From: a virus
Reading direction: 5' to 3' (one strand)
Virus record (IMG/VR): IMGVR_UViG_3300027969_000300
Span: 1-30,629 of that record
Length of the DNA stretch: 30,629 nucleotides
Of the stretch, positions 3,613 through 30,629 are shown piece by piece. The notes beneath the pieces are model-generated. The model was not told where the DNA came from, ran no database searches, and saw only the letters and a program-made list of their open reading frames with translations. The position numbers and the translations under genes were made by a program. How positions within the stretch are numbered: position 1 is the first letter of the stretch; the number at the start of each line of letters is the position of its first letter.

Positions 3613-4452
3613 ATGGCTTTCTATTCTTTTACCTACACAGTAAACAGTGTAAAGGGAAACCCTGAGCGTGAACAACATGCTCAAAAAATACATGACTATA
3701 TGGGTAAAGTCACCACTCCTTTAGGAACTCCCACTATCTCTCTTACTAATAAGAAAGAATGTTGGGAGTGGCTAGAGGCAAACCCAGACTTCAATATAGA
3801 TCTTGTAGGGTACAACCCTGGGCACTACTCTAAGTCTCAAGTTATTAGAAAGTTTTCTAAAAGAGATGGTTGGAAGTATGGGGAGATTGGCGTTTGGGCT
3901 AGTAACTTTCTTGCCTGGAAAGCATTTGTAAACTCCCCACAGGATTGTCTTATTCTATTTGAGGATGATCTTATTATACAAGATGACTTTATGCACACCC
4001 TGCACACCTACATGGATGAGCTCCCTGAGGATTGGGAGATATTCTACTTTTTTGTAGACCCATCAACACACGTATTCTACAAACCAAATGAGCATCACAT
4101 TAATAAGGACCACGTCTGTACGGTGTACCAGGATTGGTCTAATGCCTGCTATGTGATAAACAAGAAGGCGGCATCCAAACTATACTCAGAGATCCAGGTT
4201 AACCCTATTGGCTTGCCAGTTGATTGGCACATCCTAAAACGATTAGATGTCTTTAACGTATACACTGTTTTACCAACAGCCTATATTCCTTGCAGCCTTG
4301 TACCACAAATTAAATCCAGCTTTCAAAGCTCACAGAAAAGGTGGGATTTAAGCGGGCCTTACGGTGAGTGGGGTGTGGATGACAAAGGAATACCATACAG
4401 TCCTTTAGCATACGTTAACTTGTTAGAGAAAGAGTATGAAAAACATGACTGA
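3613..4452 (+). CDS. GT25-like glycosyltransferase, copy 1
   Basis: A 279-residue protein. The GEIGVWASNFLAWKAF segment, followed by LILFEDDL with the acidic Glu117-Asp118-Asp119, is the signature of glycosyltransferase family 25, where these residues bind the metal and nucleotide sugar. A later DWSNACYVINKKAASKL segment is also family-like. It lies between a fibre chaperone and another fibre gene and has a close paralog immediately downstream. It may glycosylate a virion protein or alter host surface sugars; the target cannot be read from the sequence. Confidence 0.75.
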   Translation: MAFYSFTYTVNSVKGNPEREQHAQKIHDYMGKVTTPLGTPTISLTNKKECWEWLEANPDFNIDLVGYNPGHYSKSQVIRKFSKRDGWKYGEIGVWASNFLAWKAFVNSPQDCLILFEDDLIIQDDFMHTLHTYMDELPEDWEIFYFFVDPSTHVFYKPNEHHINKDHVCTVYQDWSNACYVINKKAASKLYSEIQVNPIGLPVDWHILKRLDVFNVYTVLPTAYIPCSLVPQIKSSFQSSQKRWDLSGPYGEWGVDDKGIPYSPLAYVNLLEKEYEKHD

Positions 4453-5209
4453 CATCTTATATAAAGTTTTTCACTCAGACAAGGACACTGATAGAGAACA
4501 CCTGTGGCATAGTGCTAACCATATCTTACAGTTTATTGGAAAAGAACTTGATACCCCTACAGTTTTAATATCTGGCCCTAGGGCTCTTAAAAAGTTTTTA
4601 AATGAGAACCCCGATTTTAACGTAGATCTTAAAGGCTACGACCCACGTAAATACATGGATTCTAGATCTCAGTTTGTAGGAGCTATCTGCAGAGTGGGTT
4701 GGAGATATGGGGAGCTGGGCGTGTGGGCTAGCAACTGGCTTGCTTGGAAAAACTTTTTAAACACAGATGCTGACTACCTGATCCTTGCTGAAGACGACAT
4801 AGTTTTAATAGATGAGTGTAAAATGTTACTGGATCTATATGTAGAGCATCTGCCTGAGGGTTGGGATCAGTTTCATCTATGGGCTCCTACAGGAGACCTA
4901 TCTCTATATGACCCAAACAAGCACGGTATAGGTAATATGTATGTGGCTAAGGCATATCAAAACTGGTCTAACACTGGATATATGTTGAGCCGTAGCGGGG
5001 CACAAAAGCTTTTAGATGATGTTAAAAAAAGAGGTATCAAACTACCTTTAGATTGGCTTTGGTTTCAGGAGTCAGCCGAGTTTGATTTTAACTGCTACAC
5101 CATAACCCCACAAAGTACCCACCTATGTTATAACAGCGAAGAGGTTGGGTCCACCTTTCAATGGCAAATGAGGCGGGAAGACCTGACAAACTACGACTCT
5201 CACCTGTAA
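4436..5209 (+). CDS. GT25-like glycosyltransferase, copy 2
   Basis: A 257-residue paralog of the preceding gene, overlapping its end by 17 nt. ATG 4445 is an alternative start in the same frame. It keeps GELGVWASNWLAWKNF, LILAEDDI (Glu119-Asp120-Asp121 counted from ATG 4436) and NWSNTGYMLSRSGAQKL. Both copies also share an NPDFN-DL-GYDP/GYNP segment near residue 60. Divergence across the protein shows an old duplication, so the two may have different acceptors or sugars. Both acidic motifs are intact, so neither copy looks dead. Confidence 0.75.
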   Translation: MKNMTDILYKVFHSDKDTDREHLWHSANHILQFIGKELDTPTVLISGPRALKKFLNENPDFNVDLKGYDPRKYMDSRSQFVGAICRVGWRYGELGVWASNWLAWKNFLNTDADYLILAEDDIVLIDECKMLLDLYVEHLPEGWDQFHLWAPTGDLSLYDPNKHGIGNMYVAKAYQNWSNTGYMLSRSGAQKLLDDVKKRGIKLPLDWLWFQESAEFDFNCYTITPQSTHLCYNSEEVGSTFQWQMRREDLTNYDSHL

Positions 5210-5281: not shown

Positions 5282-6574
5282 ATGCCAGCAGACTATCCCG
5301 GTTTAGTTCACTCATTTAGCCCTCGACAGGATCTGGTTGATACTGTTATTGCTGATAACGTAAACGCCCTACAGCTTGAGGTAGCAGCTGTTCAAACAGT
5401 TCTAGGTAGCTCAGCAAATAGCACCAACCCACTGATCTCTACCTTCTCAGGTACATGGAGCTCAGCAACATCCTCTTGGGGCACTGTGGGTGCTCGCCTT
5501 CTTAATATTGAAGCTGGTCTTGTTAACGGCGTTCCTAACGTACCTTACGTATTAAATACGGGTGGAAGCACTATTACCACCACCTCTAATAAAGCTATTG
5601 TGCTTCAAGCAGGATCAGGAAGCTTAAACCTTCTTGAATCGTATTCATCTGGAGCAGTATTAGGGTTTAACTTAAACTCTTCAGGTATCCCTAAAGTAGG
5701 AACTAACAATGTTCTGTATGTAGGTAGTACAGAGTACATCGCTTTAACTACTGCAGACACAAGTTCATCTGCATCGGCAGCAGCAAAGATCCCACTATCT
5801 ACCGTAACAACAGCCGGTGATTTAATTGTAGGTACTGGAAACGCTACCGTTGGTCGTTTAGGTATTGGCTCTTCTGGTCAGGCTTTGATTATGAGCGGTA
5901 CCTCGGTTGTATGGGGCGCACCTGTAGATGCTACTAAAATTCCTTTATCTACAGTTACTACAGCCGGAGATTTACTACTTGGTACTGGAGCTTCTACTGT
6001 TGGTCGTTTAGGTATCGGTACTAGCAGTCACATACTTACCTCTAATGGGACAACAGCTACGTGGGCAGCACCTGCTGTAACCGCAGCTCAACTTACCACA
6101 ACTAACACAGCTGTAGCGACAGCTCAAGCAGCGGCAGATGCAAAGATTCCATTATCTACAGTTACCACTGCTGGAGATTTAATCCTTGGTACTGGAGCTT
6201 CTACAGTTAGTCGTTTAGGTCGTGGAACAACTGGTCAGGCTTTAGTTATGAGTGGGACATCCGTTGTATGGGCTGCTCCAGTAGATGCTACTAAAATTCC
6301 TCTTTCAACGGTAACCACAGCTGGTGATTTAATTGTGGGAACTGGAAGCTCTACAGTAGGTCGTATTGGTATTGGATCTAACGGCCAGATACTAACAAGT
6401 AACGGAACTACCGCTGCTTGGGCAACACTGTCGACACCATATGTAAATCAAACAAACGGCACAGTAACAACAGCTGCAACCTCCTCAGCTGTAGTTCGTA
6501 ATATTCACACATCTACTTCTACTCCAGTATCCGGTAACGGTATAGATGGAGACGTCTGGCTTGTGTATACATAA
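5282..6574 (+). CDS. Tail fibre protein with A-B-A-B internal repeats
   Basis: A 430-residue protein with AAGGAG upstream. The first 45 residues (opening MPADYPGLVHSF, with a helical NVNALQLEVAAVQTVLGS stretch) are a common N-terminal attachment segment in phage fibres. Four units beginning KIPLSTVTTAGDL start at residues 169, 219, 288 and 338. Units 1 and 3 resemble each other, as do 2 and 4. A short Ala-rich coiled segment (TAVATAQAAADA) separates the pairs. It overlaps the next gene by TAATG. Likely a trimeric side fibre; receptor unknown. Confidence 0.78.
   Translation: MPADYPGLVHSFSPRQDLVDTVIADNVNALQLEVAAVQTVLGSSANSTNPLISTFSGTWSSATSSWGTVGARLLNIEAGLVNGVPNVPYVLNTGGSTITTTSNKAIVLQAGSGSLNLLESYSSGAVLGFNLNSSGIPKVGTNNVLYVGSTEYIALTTADTSSSASAAAKIPLSTVTTAGDLIVGTGNATVGRLGIGSSGQALIMSGTSVVWGAPVDATKIPLSTVTTAGDLLLGTGASTVGRLGIGTSSHILTSNGTTATWAAPAVTAAQLTTTNTAVATAQAAADAKIPLSTVTTAGDLILGTGASTVSRLGRGTTGQALVMSGTSVVWAAPVDATKIPLSTVTTAGDLIVGTGSSTVGRIGIGSNGQILTSNGTTAAWATLSTPYVNQTNGTVTTAATSSAVVRNIHTSTSTPVSGNGIDGDVWLVYT
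5786..6430 (+). repeat. Higher-order A-B-A-B coding repeat in fibre gene
   Basis: Repeat units start at 5786, 5936, 6143 and 6293. The spacings are 150, 207 and 150 bp, and pairs of units recur at 357 bp. This implies one early unit duplication followed by duplication of the pair. All spacings are multiples of three. Confidence 0.85.
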
Positions 6575-7581
6575 TGGCGGGCCGTGTTAAGGTAGCAGGT
6601 ACTTGGAGAGCAACACCTGCTGTATACACTAAGGTAGCTGGAAGCTGGCGCACAGTATCAAAAGGGTATATTAAAGTAGCCGGTACTTGGAGACTATGGT
6701 TTTTAGCCGCTATCACTGATTCATTTACTAGAAACACAAACGGTACAGGTACTTTAGGTAATACAGATACTGGAAACACTTGGAGTAACTTAAGAGGGTC
6801 TTGGTTTGCTAACGGTACCCAAGCAGCAGAAATTGCTACAGCTACGTCAGCTTATCCTCTTGCTGTAGTTGAACTGGGTTCATCAAATATGATTGTCTCA
6901 GCCAATATTACACAATCCACGGGTGTTGTTGTATGGGGCGTTGATGCTAATAACTGGTGGGCTGTAGTAAATACAAACTATAACTATAACTTTCAATACA
7001 CTGGTACCTGTACCTCTTGCAGCACCTGTTACTACTGCAGTAGTTATACTTGCGCCGGTGCCTGTGGTAACGCCGTAGCTGATACTAATAACTGCTGTAC
7101 AAATGTAACTATATATGTTTGCGACGGCTACTGCGCGGGTTATGACTCATATGGTAATTGTTATGATTGGCAATATAATTGTTATTACGAAACTTTTTGC
7201 GTTGGAGATACCTATCCATGTGGTAATGCCGTAGCAGATACAAATAACTGTGGTTGCTGCTCAACCGCGTACACATGCTGTAGTGATTATTCTTGCACTC
7301 AAACCGGCACAGCTACTCAATATCAAATTAAAGTTTTAAGGTCGGTTGCAGGAACAATAACAGAAATTAATGCTGCAAACCTATCTTCTGTGGCAACTAG
7401 CGTATCAGTTACTACCTCAGGCAATACTTTGAGCTATACGGCTTATAGCGCAGGTTCACCAATTGCCACATACTCTGCGGCGCAAACATCGCCTAACACT
7501 GGTACAAAGCCTGGTATTATTAAGGGACCTGCCACTCAAGGCTCAGATACAGTAGATAACTTTGCGGCATCACCAAACTAA
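6574..7581 (+). CDS. Adhesin-like minor tail protein with a cysteine-rich insert
   Basis: A 335-residue protein coupled to the fibre gene by TAATG. Residues 4-41 hold three copies of KVAG(T/S)WR, a short motif seen at the start of phage minor tail proteins. From about residue 48 a concanavalin/laminin-G-like beta-sandwich begins (SFTRN, WGVDANNWW). It is interrupted at residues 146-241 by a segment with 20 cysteines in 96 residues, then resumes (YQIKVLRSVAG to TVDNFAASPN). The fold assignment is by pattern only. Likely a receptor-binding tip; the insert probably projects from the sandwich and is stabilised by disulfides or metal. Confidence 0.72.
   Translation: MAGRVKVAGTWRATPAVYTKVAGSWRTVSKGYIKVAGTWRLWFLAAITDSFTRNTNGTGTLGNTDTGNTWSNLRGSWFANGTQAAEIATATSAYPLAVVELGSSNMIVSANITQSTGVVVWGVDANNWWAVVNTNYNYNFQYTGTCTSCSTCYYCSSYTCAGACGNAVADTNNCCTNVTIYVCDGYCAGYDSYGNCYDWQYNCYYETFCVGDTYPCGNAVADTNNCGCCSTAYTCCSDYSCTQTGTATQYQIKVLRSVAGTITEINAANLSSVATSVSVTTSGNTLSYTAYSAGSPIATYSAAQTSPNTGTKPGIIKGPATQGSDTVDNFAASPN
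7063..7254 (+). repeat. Duplicated CGNAVADTNNC segment inside the cysteine-rich insert
   Basis: The segment at 7063-7098 recurs at 7219-7254 with only third-position differences, encoding CGNAVADTNNC twice. The two copies sit near either end of the insert, consistent with two similar arms or an internal duplication. Confidence 0.75.
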
Positions 7582-14233: not shown

Positions 14234-17092
14234 ATGTCCCAAAGCACGGTACGTCCTGATGACGCTGACGACTCTGGCTTCTCCCTAAACGGATTAGATG
14301 AAAAAGAATTTGATGCTCTGCCTAAAGAGATGCTTAAGGTCTTTAAAGAAGTTGAAAAACTTGTAGAAAAGATCATGAAGGACTGGGGCAAAACTCTTGA
14401 CGAAACAAAAGAGACCGCAAAAGAAGTAGGCGATGCTGCCAGTGGTGGCTCTGGCGGAAAGATGGCCAACAGTCTTGGAAAGTTTAGTAGCCCTGCCGGT
14501 AAAGTGGGTATGGGAATTCTGGCTGTGGGAGCTGCCTATACCTCCATGGCTCCTAACACTATGGATGCTGTTACTCAGCGTATGCAGGCAGATACGTTTG
14601 CCGGTCTTAGTGGTGTACAGGGCGGATCTCGTGGCGCAATCCGTCAAGCTAACAAACTAGTTGGTGGCGGAGCTACAAGTGCTATGGGCCCTACTATGGC
14701 TCAAGCAACTCTTTTTGGCAAAGGTATGGCTGCGGGCACAGTAGGTGCTAACAACGTTATGGGGCAGATGGCTGGCTCAACCGCGTTTAGCGGCATGAGT
14801 AACCAGCAAGTTGCAGGGGCTGTAGGTAACCTTAACGGCATGTCTCTGCTTCGTATGGGAATTCAACTGCGTGATTCTAATGGTGAAATTAAAAAGAATG
14901 ATGCCCTTATTAATAAGGTTTATCAGTTCTTGTTTCGTGGACAAAAACTTACTAAAGCTGAAGCTGCTATGGTATACGCTCCACGAAGTAAATCTAATAT
15001 TACTCTTCAACAAATTTCAGAAGGCGACCCAGATCTATTTAACTTCTTAGCATCTGGTATTGTTGCTCGCGCTAGTGCTGGAAGCGACAAGAAGTTTAGT
15101 GCTGCAATGAACAGTAAAGATCCAAACAAGATGTTGGATCTTATGGGTGTAGATAAGAGTAGTCCTCTACGTTCTAATTATAAATTTAATACAAGTGAAG
15201 CAAACAAACTCCTTGCTACAGAAAAAGGATTAGTTGGCGGCTACAACACCAGTTTAAATGCTGCATCATCTCTTAATGATGCTTATACTAAAATGGCAGA
15301 AGCTCTTGGCCCTGTTAATGATGGGCTTATGAACCTTAAAGCTATCCTACAAACTTTTCCTAATGCTGGTGGTGTAGCTGGCGGCGTAAGTCAGATTGCT
15401 AGCACTGGCATGAATGCCGCAATGACAGCTATGATGATGCGTGGTGGTGGGGGTGGCGCGGGTGCGGGAAGCGCTGGTTTCTTTGGCAAAATGGGATTTG
15501 GCAAAGGTACTTCAGGAATGGCTGGAAAATTTTCTGCTAAAGGTTTTGGTGCTGGAGCAGTTGCAGGTGTTGGATTAAATGTTGCAGGAAATGCAATTAA
15601 AGGCGACTCAGAAAAAGGAAGCGCAAGATCTAGACTTGGTACCGCTGCAAAGTGGGCAGGCAATGCCGCTATATTAAACATACTTGGTCCTGAAATTGGC
15701 GTACCAGCTATGATTCTTGCCGGTATTGCTGGCGGCATCTTTGGTGGTGAGAGAGGCAATACTATGGATGTTGCTGTTGAAAAGCATACTGCTTCAGGTA
15801 CTCCAATGCCAACTGCTAGTCCGGTACCTGCTGGAACAGATGTTACATCTCCGTTTGGTCTTAGACCGGAAGCTGTAAAAAAAGCTGCTGCAGCTGGACA
15901 CAAGATCAGCTTAGACCATAAAGGTACAGACTACGGCGTTCCCTCCGGAACACCTATCAAAGCTGTATCAGATGGTGTTGTAGAGAAGACAGGAAATCAA
16001 CCTACTGGTTGGGGTAACTATGTTCTTGTCCGACACCCTGATGGTAGTAGCTCAAGATACTGTCACTTGCGTCGCATAAGTGTAAGCACAAATCAAAAGA
16101 TTAAAAAGGGAGACATCATTGGTTTGTCCGGTGGTGGTGAAAACGACCCTGGTCGTGGAAACTCAACAGCTGCGCACCTTCACTTTGAAATTGCAAACAA
16201 GACAGGTGTTCGTGTAGACCCTGAAGCTTGGTTAGCAAACGCAAAGATCCCTCTTATTGCTGGGCTTAACTCTCAAGGAAAAAGATCAGAAGTAGGAAGC
16301 ATGTTGTTTGATGAGTACAACTCACTTACTGATGCGTTTTCTCCAAACAGCCTAGACGGCTTCTTACAGGGTCAAGCAGATTATGGCGGAATTTCTTATA
16401 GTGATCTTACTAAGAACTTTAGTAAATCAGAACTTGAAGCCTTTAAAAATGTTACTGATAACTACACCGGTAAGCCAACTAAAAATAAAAAAGAATTAAT
16501 GACTATGATTGCCGCGGGTGGTTTTAGAGGACCCGCGCTTAAAACTGCATACGCAATTTCTTTAGCTGAATCTGGTGGCCGTTCTAATGCAAAAGGTGAT
16601 GTATCTTTACAAAATGAAAAATGGGGTCCAAGTGTAGGTTTGTTCCAAATTCGTTCTTTAAAGGACTGGAAAAAGTATAACGATCCTTACCGTGACGCAT
16701 CCAGACTTACAGACCCAAAGTACAATATTGAAGCTGCTTGGAAGAAAAGTAACGAAGGAACTAACTTTAAGCCTTGGTCTGCATATACTAACGGTGCTTT
16801 TGCTAAGCACCTTTCTGAAGCAGATGTTATGGCTAAGGCTGTTGGAGTAGGTGGCGGCATAGGTGGCGGCAATGATTCTATGAACGTTGGGGTCGCTTCT
16901 TCACCAGCAACCATGGGTAGTCGCAGCTCCAACGGAAGTACAATGACAGCCAATTCTAATGTTACAATTAACCTGGATATGAGAGTATCTATAGCAAGTG
17001 CTAGCCCGGTAGAAGCCGAACGTCTTGTACGGCTTGTGGGGGAAAAACTTAAAAAAGATGCTGACTTTAAAAAGATTGCGAGTAGTTTATAA
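14234..17092 (+). CDS. Tape measure protein with M23 peptidase and lytic-transglycosylase-like domains
   Basis: A 952-residue protein, preceded by an extended site (AGGCGGTGAT). The N-terminal 480 residues are helical and Ala/Gly-rich; hydrophobic stretches include about 478-506. An M23 metallopeptidase domain follows, with His562 and Asp566 (HKGTD) and HLHFE at 648-652 supplying the zinc and catalytic residues. A lysozyme/SLT-like domain begins near 755, with AESGG (Glu779 likely catalytic), GLFQI at 802-806 and a PWSAYTNG ending. It sets tail length and probably cuts peptidoglycan during injection. It is longest-but-one in the window and sits directly after the chaperone. Confidence 0.9.
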   Translation: MSQSTVRPDDADDSGFSLNGLDEKEFDALPKEMLKVFKEVEKLVEKIMKDWGKTLDETKETAKEVGDAASGGSGGKMANSLGKFSSPAGKVGMGILAVGAAYTSMAPNTMDAVTQRMQADTFAGLSGVQGGSRGAIRQANKLVGGGATSAMGPTMAQATLFGKGMAAGTVGANNVMGQMAGSTAFSGMSNQQVAGAVGNLNGMSLLRMGIQLRDSNGEIKKNDALINKVYQFLFRGQKLTKAEAAMVYAPRSKSNITLQQISEGDPDLFNFLASGIVARASAGSDKKFSAAMNSKDPNKMLDLMGVDKSSPLRSNYKFNTSEANKLLATEKGLVGGYNTSLNAASSLNDAYTKMAEALGPVNDGLMNLKAILQTFPNAGGVAGGVSQIASTGMNAAMTAMMMRGGGGGAGAGSAGFFGKMGFGKGTSGMAGKFSAKGFGAGAVAGVGLNVAGNAIKGDSEKGSARSRLGTAAKWAGNAAILNILGPEIGVPAMILAGIAGGIFGGERGNTMDVAVEKHTASGTPMPTASPVPAGTDVTSPFGLRPEAVKKAAAAGHKISLDHKGTDYGVPSGTPIKAVSDGVVEKTGNQPTGWGNYVLVRHPDGSSSRYCHLRRISVSTNQKIKKGDIIGLSGGGENDPGRGNSTAAHLHFEIANKTGVRVDPEAWLANAKIPLIAGLNSQGKRSEVGSMLFDEYNSLTDAFSPNSLDGFLQGQADYGGISYSDLTKNFSKSELEAFKNVTDNYTGKPTKNKKELMTMIAAGGFRGPALKTAYAISLAESGGRSNAKGDVSLQNEKWGPSVGLFQIRSLKDWKKYNDPYRDASRLTDPKYNIEAAWKKSNEGTNFKPWSAYTNGAFAKHLSEADVMAKAVGVGGGIGGGNDSMNVGVASSPATMGSRSSNGSTMTANSNVTINLDMRVSIASASPVEAERLVRLVGEKLKKDADFKKIASSL

Positions 17093-27063: not shown

Positions 27064-27993
27064 ATGCAATCACCATATTCAAACCCCTACTTGTCGATGC
27101 GGGCAAGAGGGCTATTCGCATACTATGCAGAGCTTGGCCGAGTTGTATCGGCTGACGAGCTCTCTGCCGTCATGCCCGAAGGTAGAGACTCAATCCAAGG
27201 TGCGATCAACGAATTAAAAGCAAACCTATATATTAAGACCACCAGAGAGTGGAACGGCACTAAGTGGTTTAGCTCTATGAAGTTCACAGAAGGGGCAAAA
27301 AAGCTCTTAAGTCTGAATACCGGCTTTTCAGGGCTCTTGTACATTGACAGTGATGCAACTACTAATACTAGTACTACTACTAGTAACAATCCTATAGTAG
27401 AACTACTACGTAGTTCTACTATATCGAGGACTGCGTCCTCGAGGAATGAAAGAGGTAATGAGATGGGATGGGATTTAGATGGAGAACAACCTAAGCCAAA
27501 GAAGCGCTTTCGAATTGACGCAGAAGATGATTCAAGTGGCGCTGTAGGCAAGGTCGAAGACAAGAAGGCTTTGCGCCAGGCTAAGTACGGGGCAAAGGAT
27601 CTAGAGTCTGATCCACTTCAGAATCGCTCTAACAAACCTGAGGCGGACTGGAGCACTAAAGATCTTGTAGCAGAGTTTGGGGCTTTACTAAACCGTAGTC
27701 AAGCTCGTGATGTCCCTATGCAGCTTAACACTCAGCATCTTTCTATCTGGATCAACAAGATGGTTGGCGAAGGCGTAACTAGACAACAGATGCTTCTAGC
27801 TATTAGAATGTTCTTTGAGGACCCACGTCATCTTAACGACCCAGGTATTGGCGTTCAGATCTGGCGCAGGTTCATAGCGTACTACCCAACCGCACACGGC
27901 TTGGTTACCCGCGAAGAGTTACCTACATCCTATGTGGATGAAGAGTTCAAGGCTCAGCAAGATAAGATGCTCAGACTACTAGGAGGCAAGTAA
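27064..27993 (+). CDS. Winged-helix replication initiator-like protein
   Basis: A 309-residue protein with GAGGAG upstream. Residues about 8-85 (ARGLFAYYAELGRVVSADELSA, IQGAINELKANLYIK) form a winged-helix DNA-binding domain of the type in phage replication initiators. A Ser/Thr/Asn-rich linker at about 98-130 is encoded by the inverted-repeat cluster. The C-terminal domain (STKDLVAEFGALLN, IWINKMVGEGVTRQQMLLAIRMFF) is helical and may contact helicase or loader. The gene is followed by a DnaC-like loader and DnaB-like helicase, supporting a role in origin recognition. It overlaps the next gene by TAATG. Confidence 0.7.
   Translation: MQSPYSNPYLSMRARGLFAYYAELGRVVSADELSAVMPEGRDSIQGAINELKANLYIKTTREWNGTKWFSSMKFTEGAKKLLSLNTGFSGLLYIDSDATTNTSTTTSNNPIVELLRSSTISRTASSRNERGNEMGWDLDGEQPKPKKRFRIDAEDDSSGAVGKVEDKKALRQAKYGAKDLESDPLQNRSNKPEADWSTKDLVAEFGALLNRSQARDVPMQLNTQHLSIWINKMVGEGVTRQQMLLAIRMFFEDPRHLNDPGIGVQIWRRFIAYYPTAHGLVTREELPTSYVDEEFKAQQDKMLRLLGGK
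27366..27385 (+). repeat. Two direct copies of palindrome TACTAGTA
   Basis: TACTAGTA occurs at 27366-27373 and 27378-27385. The spacing is 12 bp, close to one helical turn. They lie within the replication gene just before the longer inverted repeats. Confidence 0.75.
27393..27423. repeat. Perfect 14-bp inverted repeat (AT-rich) in the initiator gene
   Basis: Arms TATAGTAGAACTAC (27393-27406) and GTAGTTCTACTATA (27410-27423) are perfect complements with a 3-base centre TAC. It is not followed by a T-run, so it is not an ordinary terminator. It could be a protein-binding site or cruciform at a replication origin. Confidence 0.9.
27424..27442. repeat. Perfect 8-bp inverted repeat (GC-rich) abutting the previous one
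   Basis: Arms TCGAGGAC (27424-27431) and GTCCTCGA (27435-27442) flank TGC. It begins at the base after the 14-bp repeat ends, so two hairpins stand side by side. Confidence 0.88.
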
Positions 27994-28166
27994 TGGAGTG
28001 CATTGCTAAAACTTCTACTGGTAATCCTTGCAAGGTTAAAGGCGAGGAGAGCCGTAACGGATTGTGTCATGTTCATGACCCAAACGGCAAGTATCAAGTC
28101 CAACACCCAAAGTTCGCAGAGGCAGTTAAAAAAATACAGGAGGCAAGTAATGTACGACTTAAATAA
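27993..28166 (+). CDS. 57-residue Cys/His mini-protein
   Basis: A short protein starting in a TAATG overlap with the initiator gene; AGGAGG lies at 27981-27986. Cys3, Cys13, Cys25 and His28 (ECIAKTSTGNPCK, LCHVH) match the small zinc-binding pattern C-A-T-x-G-x-PC...C-x-x-H found in many phage and bacterial mini-proteins. Its end overlaps the loader start by 17 nt. Function unknown. Confidence 0.65.
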   Translation: MECIAKTSTGNPCKVKGEESRNGLCHVHDPNGKYQVQHPKFAEAVKKIQEASNVRLK

Positions 28167-28791
28167 GATCGCACCTACCATCCGTCACCGGATCCTACGA
28201 GCCAATCTGCCTATGAAGTCTATCGGTATGGAGCTCTCAGACCTCAATAACGGCCCTGCTGTGGATAAGGTCAAAATCTGGCTGGAGCAGGTTAGATCAG
28301 GAGTGGTCATTAAAAGCCCTGGAAGCCCCTTTAGCGGGCTTGGACTCCTACTGGTAGGGTTACCAGGTCACGGCAAGACAACCCTAGCCTCTGTGGCGGT
28401 TCAGGAGCTTATTCGAACAATGCCGTTTGACCTAGAACAGCCTGGTTTATTCTTGGACTACCCAAAGTTCCTACGACTTGAGAAGAGCGCATTCGACGAC
28501 AACAGTCTAGAAGATGACCTAAAAAAGATCTACGGGGATGATCGCCATTCAATACCTTTGTTTATCTTAGATGATCTTGGTAAAGAATATAAAACTCAGG
28601 CCGGTTGGTCAGAGAATGTTTTTGATGCTTTGATCCGTGCACGATTTAACGCAGGTCTTCCAACAATTATTACTACAAATGTCCGTACAGAAAGTTGGAG
28701 ACGTACGTATGGTGAAGCAATGGCAAGCTTTGCCCATGAAGCATTCATGTGGGTTGAGGTAGAATCAGAGAATGGAGACTTACGTAAATGA
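28150..28791 (+). CDS. DnaC/IstB-like AAA+ helicase loader
   Basis: A 213-residue ATPase. I start it at ATG 28150, with AGGAGG at 28138-28143; an in-frame ATG at 28003 would read through the mini-protein and give an unnatural N-terminus. Walker A is GLPGHGKT (70-77), Walker B FILDDL (138-143), and a TIITTN segment fits sensor 1. It most likely opens and loads the DnaB-like helicase encoded two genes on. It overlaps the SWIM gene by ATGA. Confidence 0.85.
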   Translation: MYDLNKIAPTIRHRILRANLPMKSIGMELSDLNNGPAVDKVKIWLEQVRSGVVIKSPGSPFSGLGLLLVGLPGHGKTTLASVAVQELIRTMPFDLEQPGLFLDYPKFLRLEKSAFDDNSLEDDLKKIYGDDRHSIPLFILDDLGKEYKTQAGWSENVFDALIRARFNAGLPTIITTNVRTESWRRTYGEAMASFAHEAFMWVEVESENGDLRK

Positions 28792-29084
28792 AATTACCTG
28801 ACATGTATTGGATGATCACGCAGCTTTTTCTATCTGACACTGGTGTGCACGAAGTGCATGTCCATCAGAGCACACACAAGTTGCGTTGCAACTGTCCTGG
28901 GTATACAACACGCAGTCAATGTAAGCATACTCGTTTTGTAAAAGAGAAGATGGCAAACAACGGTGGCACATACCCTGTAGAAATCTCAAACAAAGTTGAT
29001 AGATACAGTAGTGAGATGGCTGCCGAGGATCCAGTGGCTTTTAGAGAATTGCTGGTAAACTACGGCAAGATCGTAGCACTGTAG
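28788..29084 (+). CDS. SWIM-type zinc finger protein
   Basis: A 98-residue protein. Cys34, Cys36, Cys45 and His47 in CNCPGYTTRSQCKH give the CxCx(n)CxH SWIM zinc motif, which binds DNA or proteins. Preceded by strands EVHVHQSTHKLR, the usual context of the motif. Small stand-alone SWIM proteins occur in replication modules of other phages; the role here is inferred from position. Confidence 0.7.
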   Translation: MKLPDMYWMITQLFLSDTGVHEVHVHQSTHKLRCNCPGYTTRSQCKHTRFVKEKMANNGGTYPVEISNKVDRYSSEMAAEDPVAFRELLVNYGKIVAL

Positions 29085-29086
29085 GA

Positions 29087-29503
29087 ATGCGCGGGGGCGA
29101 TATTTCTAACGAGATACCTATGAGGGTACTCGTATCCTTAGACTGCATACTTGCTAGGGAACTAAAGTTTAATAGGGTGCTTGGTATTCAAGTTCCTTAT
29201 GAAGAAGTTACTTACAGCCGTCAAGCCCTATCAAGCTTCTGGCGGTTCAGAGATAAAAATGAGTACACCTTAGAGTTAGTAGGGTTCGAACACTCTCAGG
29301 AACAGATGGACGATGTGTTAGAAGATCTAGACAACCTAGGTACTAACCCATTTAATTATTCAAGAGCTTATCCGGTAGTTGCTGATCTTGTAGCAGAGCT
29401 TCCGTACAGACCGGAAATAAAATATGTAATTGATGTCAGCTCTCGTGGTATGCGCTACGGGCACTGGTTTCTAGACGAGGGAGCAATGCATGGCAGCAAA
29501 TAA
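29087..29503 (+). CDS. HAD-like or unknown protein
   Basis: A 138-residue protein. ATG 29087 has AGGA immediately before it, too close for normal use; ATG 29120 (MRVLVSLDCI) is an equally good start. The SLDCIL beginning and the KYVIDVSSRGMRYGHWFLDEG ending are loosely like HAD-superfamily phosphatase relatives in phages. The usual DxD motif is not present (LDCI), so if related it may be inactive. Overlaps the helicase by 14 nt. Confidence 0.5.
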   Translation: MRGGDISNEIPMRVLVSLDCILARELKFNRVLGIQVPYEEVTYSRQALSSFWRFRDKNEYTLELVGFEHSQEQMDDVLEDLDNLGTNPFNYSRAYPVVADLVAELPYRPEIKYVIDVSSRGMRYGHWFLDEGAMHGSK

Positions 29504-30629
29504 TGAAGAGCGCTTGCTCTCCAAAGCCATACGCAGTAGGGATATAAGACCCCTTATTGAGTACGGTGTACAGGAGGACTGGTTCTTTAATGATCTTAAC
29601 CGACAGGTCTGGAAGTTCGTTGCTAAGCATAACGAGAAGTATGGTGAAGTACCTACTGCCGTTACTGTAAAGGAAAACTTTCCTACCTATACGTTGCATG
29701 CCGTAGAAGATAACATCGAGTATCTCTTAGATCAGTTGGTAGAGTATCGCAAGCGTCAGAAGACTATTGATACTCTGCTAGAGGCACAACAATCTGTACA
29801 GCTAGGTGATCACAACGCAGCTATTCAGACTATGAGTTCTGCGGTGCAGTCGCTTCTTAACGACAACACCAGAGAGTCTAACGACGAGAACCTTAGCGAG
29901 AACCCACTAGAACGTTACGATGAATACTTGAGTATCAAGACTCGTCCTAACGGTTTACTTGGTATCTCTACAGGGTTTAAGACTATCGATGACATTACTG
30001 CCGGATTACTTAAGCAACAGCTGTGGACTATAGTGGCCCCGCCTAAGACAGGTAAGTCTGTGCTAGCTATGCAGATGGCTATCCGTGCACAGGATGAAAA
30101 CCTTAAGGTTATGTTTCAATCGTTTGAGATGACGGCTAGAGAAATGAAGACACGTTACGACGCTATGCGTGCCCACATTTCACACAGTCGTTTGATCCGT
30201 GGTGCTCTGCGCACAGAGGAAGAAAAGCGTTACATGGATCATCTAAGTGAGCTCCGTCAAGAGTTCTGGATGCCAGATAACATTGCAGCACGAACCATCA
30301 CTGGTCTGTCTGCAAAGATTGAGAAGTTCAAACCGGATATCGTATTCGTTGATGGTATGTACCTGATGATGGATGAAGAGACCGGAGAGACTGAGAGCGA
30401 ACGCTCACTACGTAGTCTTACTCGTAACATGAAGCGTGTAGCTCAGCGTTATGATGTGCCTGTTGTGGTGAGTACTCAAGCACTGCGTTCTAAAATGCGT
30501 GGGGGAAAAGTAACTGCTGATTCTATTGGCTATACATCTTCTTTCTTGCAGGACTCAGACATTGTGTTAGCACTACAGCGACAGGACGAAGAAGATGATT
30601 CATCTAGATCTTTAACTGTTGCAGCAAGT
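29490..30629 (+). CDS. dnaB: DnaB-like replicative helicase (partial, cut by window end)
   Basis: The start is ATG 29490 and the frame is open to the window end, giving 380 residues. The N-terminal helical domain (ERLLSKAIRSRDIRPLIEYGV, QEDWFFNDLNRQVWKFV) is DnaB-like. The RecA-type core has Walker A APPKTGKS (183-190), the Walker B aspartate in IVFVDG (Asp288), and VVVSTQALRS, typical of DnaB motif H3. It unwinds DNA at the phage fork and fits the loader upstream. Only the C-terminal end is missing. Confidence 0.92.
   Translation, partial: MAANNEERLLSKAIRSRDIRPLIEYGVQEDWFFNDLNRQVWKFVAKHNEKYGEVPTAVTVKENFPTYTLHAVEDNIEYLLDQLVEYRKRQKTIDTLLEAQQSVQLGDHNAAIQTMSSAVQSLLNDNTRESNDENLSENPLERYDEYLSIKTRPNGLLGISTGFKTIDDITAGLLKQQLWTIVAPPKTGKSVLAMQMAIRAQDENLKVMFQSFEMTAREMKTRYDAMRAHISHSRLIRGALRTEEEKRYMDHLSELRQEFWMPDNIAARTITGLSAKIEKFKPDIVFVDGMYLMMDEETGETESERSLRSLTRNMKRVAQRYDVPVVVSTQALRSKMRGGKVTADSIGYTSSFLQDSDIVLALQRQDEEDDSSRSLTVAAS

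Follow-up and report, generated by a model that had tools for sequence, protein, structure and literature searches.

The window analyzed here is the entire 30,629-bp IMG/VR record. Its last part carries a replication-initiator-like gene, a putative cluster of hairpins inside this gene and loader and helicase genes downstream of it, with the following features:

27064..27993, plus strand: replication-initiator-like gene, 309 aa, assigned from predicted-structure domains together with the PHROG and HTH_36 matches of its relatives
27357..27392, strand not applicable: ACT/AGT array rich in TpA and containing two TACTAGTA palindromes, a candidate unwinding or initiator-binding stretch that varies between lineages
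27393..27423: hairpin H1, a 14-bp perfect inverted repeat with a TAC loop (C-GTA-G on the minus strand)
27424..27442: hairpin H2, an 8-bp perfect inverted repeat rich in GC, with a TGC loop (C-GCA-G on the minus strand)
27450..27455, plus strand: internal Shine-Dalgarno-like (SD) AAGAGG, from SD energy
27463..27993, plus strand: probable internal start (M134) of a C-terminal-only product of 176 aa, from conservation of the start codon and of the SD
27993..28166, plus strand: ORF of 57 aa between the initiator and loader genes, from the ORF list
28150..28791, plus strand: DnaC-like helicase loader (phrog_50, E 8e-25)
29490..30629, plus strand: DnaB-like replicative helicase, cut at the window end (PF03796, E 3.5e-29; phrog_19, E 2e-59)

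The first-pass annotation had placed loader and helicase genes after the initiator-like gene, and the Pfam and PHROG profile matches bear this out, the loader gene coming before that of DnaB. A small ORF located between these two genes (28788-29084) shows a CxC...CxH spacing and a weak match to the SWIM zinc finger (E 0.066). Elsewhere in the window, 14234-17092 encodes a protein of tape-measure size that contains M23 peptidase and SLT_3 lysozyme-like domains, and two similar ORFs are adjacent (3613-4452 and 4436-5209), the former matching phage glucosyltransferase/glycosyltransferase PHROGs. An ORF of 335 aa (6574-7581) starts with repeated KVAGTWR-type motifs, has only weak matches, in its first part, to PHROGs of unknown function, and contains a Cys/Tyr-rich insert of about 95 residues with repeated CGNAVADTNNC.

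The initiator-like protein of the window has by itself no significant match in Pfam or PHROG, and its family was assigned through the other members of the family, the window protein alone being insufficient. The proteins of its relatives match HTH_36 (the PF13730 match being weak) as well as PHROGs annotated as replication initiation protein, O-like and DnaD-like loader. A fold search in the PDB retrieved only generic winged helices (best E 0.09), and a viral fold search gave weak matches that include a replisome organizer and a RepA-like initiator. The AlphaFold model, of modest confidence (mean pLDDT 61), predicts a winged helix (residues 12-74), a disordered stretch (85-166) and a helical C-terminal part (163-306). 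In this model, the hairpins and boxes encode part of the disordered linker (approximately residues 101-126), which agrees with the earlier proposal that the cluster encodes a linker between the winged helix and the C-terminal domain.

The two TACTAGTA palindromes of the window (27366-27373 and 27378-27385, starts 12 bp apart with 4 nt between them) precede H1, whose arms (27393-27406 and 27410-27423) pair at 14 of 14 positions, and H2 follows without any gap (arms 27424-27431 and 27435-27442, 8/8 paired). This confirms the series of two palindromes and two abutting perfect inverted repeats reported initially. H1 is beyond chance expectation: the longest arm (loop of 3-8 nt) did not exceed 12 bp in 300 dinucleotide-preserving shuffles of the window, compared to 14 bp observed, and a 14-bp stem arose in 6 of 20,000 draws when codons were redrawn with the protein held fixed. 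Folded as DNA, the minus strand has a z of -8.0. Neither a terminator nor a sigma-70 promoter was found above chance in the cluster, and the lack of support for a terminator, already mentioned in the first-pass annotation, extends to the whole region, which is devoid of terminator-like sites.

Three protein-based scans, using peptide patterns that lie outside H1/H2, retrieved 174 gene copies (109 distinct), the relatives of the initiator-like protein spanning 40-99% protein identity; a loader-based scan yielded additional carriers of H1. The scan of bacterial and archaeal genome contigs gave no relatives, and the winged-helix similarities retrieved from cultured phages were too weak (best E 0.03) for these phages to be counted as such. 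H1 reaches at least 10 bp in 103 of the 109 distinct genes, and four of the 109 (L024, L059, L137 and L156) end before the linker. On a tree of 106 genes computed without the linker columns, H1 and H2 are found at the equivalent position in 104 genes, L020 and L022 being the only two relatives devoid of them. It had been predicted that the palindromes would be conserved while linker residues vary, and relatives that keep the gene without its palindromes had been named as evidence against an origin. The prediction holds for H1 and H2, the peptides encoded over them differing among relatives (PIVELLRSSTI, AIYKDTNVSLYI, NIDTVTNVTVSI), and fails for the TACTAGTA boxes; relatives of the second kind do exist, as L020 and L022, beside the 104 genes that carry both hairpins. 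The linkers of L020 (103-1005) and L022 (5001-5936) contain longer TACTAGTA arrays that are themselves palindromic. Since the peptides vary along with the stems, it is the DNA that constrains the protein.

The conservation of H1 and H2 also goes beyond this prediction, as their position, symmetry and loop rule are kept while the stem sequence turns over: there are 21 distinct H1 stems and 28 distinct forms of H2, which adjoins H1 or sits within a few bases of it. In the 104 carriers on the tree, 1470 of 1470 H1 stem cells are Watson-Crick and none is G-T; as stem length was set by perfect pairing, the informative part of this count is that 10-15 bp are reached in every carrier with no stop at a G-T. 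The tree requires at least 78 double changes of pair state, or 47 (22 + 25) if they are counted inside each loop class. Among the eight distinct 15-bp H1 stems, changes affect both members of 9 of the 15 pairs and never a single member of a pair, with a covariation score of 0.538 compared to 0.151 after shuffling (0/500). Close relatives (L248, L249 and L250) combine H1 and H2 forms differently, TISRTASS or TILGKNFP being encoded after a similar H1, which suggests that the two hairpins turned over separately or were recombined.

This turnover bears on two other explanations. The palindromes could be bound as duplex DNA by a protein dimer (the initiator or a repressor), in keeping with their perfect dyad symmetry, the winged helix of the protein and the TACTAGTA repeats. 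However, a double-stranded site is expected to conserve sequence and not symmetry, whereas such a variety of H1 stems and H2 forms accompanies similar winged helices and an unchanged loop identity. We therefore consider dimer sites improbable for the hairpins; this reading may apply to the TACTAGTA boxes. Alternatively, H1 and H2 could be quasi-palindromes devoid of selected function, made perfect by template-switch mutation where the linker tolerates changes. This would account for the missing mismatches and would suit a linker modeled as disordered, but leaves unexplained that 104 of 106 genes share the same place, the H1-H2 order, the loop rule and a single copy, and it appears more improbable still.

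The loop rule concerns all carriers: the H1 loop is always TAC, TTC or TAAC closed by C-G, which reads C-GTA-G, C-GAA-G or C-GTTA-G on the minus strand, i.e., GNA or GNNA. H2 loops are GNA, GNNA or CNNG in 19 of the 28 distinct forms. All H1 (on the minus strand) and most H2 display loops of the GNA/GNNA mini-hairpin type closed by C-G. Such loops give extraordinarily stable DNA mini-hairpins (PMC4686876). In the promoter hairpins of phage N4, the loop-closing G-C pair, the 5′ G and the 3′ A of the loop are required for extrusion at physiological supercoiling (PMC4496689). Taken together, the loop rule and the absence of G-T pairs favor DNA hairpins. It should however be emphasized that arm-to-arm template-switch correction could also remove mismatches and G-T pairs, which weakens the argument based on their absence. 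To our knowledge, no RNA loop family covers the H1 loop rule, and an Rfam search gave no family at the gathering cut-off (best E 0.13, under the gathering score).

Just downstream of the hairpins lies the probable internal start, a feature absent from the first-pass annotation. The M134 codon is ATG in 101 of the 106 genes and GTG in the other 5, the SD duplex energy has a median of -8.8 kcal/mol at M134 compared to -2.2 kcal/mol at other internal Met codons, and the SD is stronger than in synonymous shuffles (p 1e-4, on rows that are not independent). H1 ends mostly 27-43 nt upstream of this start, and L020 and L022 retain the SD and the ATG despite having no hairpins. An MxW motif is also conserved in the protein, and part of the conservation of the start site may therefore result from protein selection. 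Given the conserved SD and ATG/GTG, the initiator gene likely encodes a second, C-terminal-only product without winged helix.

The same conservation provides a competing reason for hairpins located upstream and makes a regulatory RNA role of H1 and H2 the main rival of an origin. They would fold in the transcript and control or protect translation of the C-terminal-only form, or stabilize the downstream loader-helicase mRNA once the transcript is cleaved in its UA-rich stretch. The strength and conservation of the internal start, its short distance from H1 and the fold of the coding strand as RNA (z -5.1) are all consistent with such an element. In contrast, G-U pairs are completely missing from the 1470 stem cells although they would be near-neutral in a 14-15 bp RNA stem, the loop rule fits GNA/GNNA loops of minus-strand DNA, L020 and L022 keep the start without the hairpins, and Rfam provides no family at its cut-off. 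Overall, an mRNA element seems unlikely to us, without being negligible.

Two H1 patterns, searched exactly in 2.9 million viral contigs, occur 85 times, always in homologs of the initiator-like gene and once per contig. A comparable adjacent hairpin pair elsewhere in the genome is absent in 12 of the 13 larger relatives, the exception being one pair in G012. Because of this single copy per genome, a mobile palindrome (REP-like element) was rejected. Other types of sites, i.e., an N4-type promoter hairpin for an injected RNA polymerase, a recombination or telomere-resolution site, or a transcription terminator, are the least probable explanations that we considered. N4 promoters do follow the same C-GNA-G loop rule (PMC4496689), but there is one site per genome, and the region of the cluster has no terminator-like site. 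Furthermore, three relatives of about 100 kb (G010, G012 and G018) have no ORF of vRNAP size (none >1300 aa, the longest being 1249 aa), on which ground the N4-type promoter was rejected; the integrase/resolvase site was rejected since a Pfam tyrosine integrase or serine resolvase was found in none of nine records. Identical ends of 93-94 bp in G010 and G012 and of 123 bp in G011 indicate that these genomes, of about 100-102 kb, are circular or circularly permuted.

Base composition was compared in 13 genomes. The genome-wide maximum of TpA steps lies inside the initiator-like gene in 11 of them, including G007, the record of L022 that lacks H1/H2, while the peak in the gene ranks second in G022 and fifteenth in G018; several of these genomes are closely related, and the independent count is therefore smaller. 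In the window, the peak in the gene is equaled by one other. The rank of the gene for nearest-neighbor duplex stability goes from 1 in some genomes to >60 in others. The Thr, Ser and Ile codons located upstream of H1 show a strong bias to ACT, AGT and ATA (the rows being related, p-values are descriptive), and the TACTA/TAGTA cluster represents the genome-wide peak in 9 of 13 genomes and in the window, but not in G009-G011 and G018. The gene contains a single ACTAGT or none in 9 of 13 genomes, and TACTAGTA boxes were rejected as universal iterons since they are single or absent in most lineages. These non-universal repeats are thus the lineage-variable part of the cluster and, judging from the sequences compared, H1 and H2 are its conserved core. 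The GC-skew minimum had been proposed as a check of the origin. The raw cumulative minimum indeed coincides with the start of the gene, or lies no more than about 350 bp away from it, in G003, G004, G007, G008 and G022. However, no change of skew occurs at the gene at fourfold-degenerate sites in any of 14 records; the raw switch thus reflects protein composition, and skew was dropped as support.

The best explanation of the cluster, and in our opinion a reasonably probable one, is that it constitutes the core of an intragenic replication origin carrying DNA hairpins. The cluster lies inside an initiator gene, between its DNA-binding and C-terminal segments, and loader and replicative helicase genes follow. 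The architecture of the initiator, this synteny, the pairing kept despite turnover, the loop rule, the single copy and the TpA peak favor an origin. The absence of a skew switch at fourfold sites, the two relatives without hairpins, the lack of a universal iteron, the TpA rank of 15 in G018 and the variable duplex stability weigh against it. Origin activity, protein binding, extrusion, resistance to single-strand binding protein (SSB) and strand choice are all inferred from sequence. At such an origin, the winged helix of the initiator would probably bind near the TpA-rich ACT/AGT stretch of its own gene, and this stretch, presumably among the easiest to unwind in the genome, would melt under negative supercoiling. 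H1 and H2 could then extrude as DNA hairpins, their minus-strand C-GNA-G and C-GNNA-G loops conferring unusual stability. By analogy with N4, the extruded hairpins might persist against SSB on one strand and would thereby indicate to the DnaC-like loader the strand that is to receive DnaB.

More tentatively, the locus could represent a phage origin of a type not described before, where two GNA/GNNA hairpins, defined by structure and free of sequence constraint, would serve in the frame of the initiator as a strand-specific mark for helicase loading and would be overlapped by an internal start giving a form without DNA-binding domain; this is possible rather than probable. In an open-access library, no publication was found to describe paired DNA hairpins with compensating changes in the initiator gene of a phage, an absence limited to that library and not proof of novelty. 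Compensating changes commonly identify RNA structures, and a DNA structure kept in this way inside a coding frame, throughout a phage family without any cultured member among the relatives retrieved, would be unusual. If true, it would provide a sequence-independent origin signature for uncultured phages and a natural test of the part played by cruciform extrusion in initiation. G-T substitutions would be a clean way to separate DNA from RNA structure, and the likely second protein of the initiator gene is a possible built-in regulator.

The hairpins share with those of the N4 vRNAP early promoters the C-G closing pair and the 5′ G and 3′ A of the loop; N4 hairpins are extruded at physiological supercoiling, and the one on one strand withstands SSB, which melts only the hairpin of the opposite strand (PMC4496689). 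They differ in that N4 hairpins are promoters present in several copies, and no ORF for a giant virion RNA polymerase was seen in the relatives checked.

The first-pass annotation had likened the cluster to the origin of lambda, which lies in the middle of gene O and is followed by the loader gene P, and for whose iterons hairpin/cruciform folding has been discussed (PMC7466680). The layout is indeed similar, with a mid-gene origin in the initiator and a loader gene after it. However, the lambda origin combines conserved 18-19 bp iterons with an AT-rich tract, hairpins in O (with loops of 3-8 nt) reach 7 bp at most, and no sequence or profile homology to lambda O was found, the relatives having only weak PHROG matches to O-like families. 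SPP1 gene 38 and the rep gene of pSK41 are nearer precedents. In SPP1, compared here by its described layout, oriL lies inside gene 38 and the order is gp38 initiator, gp39 loader and gp40 DnaB, as for the origin candidate and the gene order found here; in the consulted parts of that source, oriL is described with direct repeats and an AT-rich unwinding element, and without a conserved hairpin pair (PMC6316719). The staphylococcal rep genes of pSK41 (RepA_N) and pPR9 are close in domain layout. In pSK41 Rep, a winged helix at the N-terminus and a DnaD-like domain at the C-terminus are separated by a linker that the protein can do without and that is encoded by the origin, with Rep boxes in mid-gene; this is a direct precedent for an origin placed in dispensable linker sequence. 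pPR9 rep has a phage-like N-terminal domain of the PF13730 type (PMC5703833). These genes are plasmid-borne and rely on Rep-box repeats, whereas the phage family described here carries compensating hairpins.
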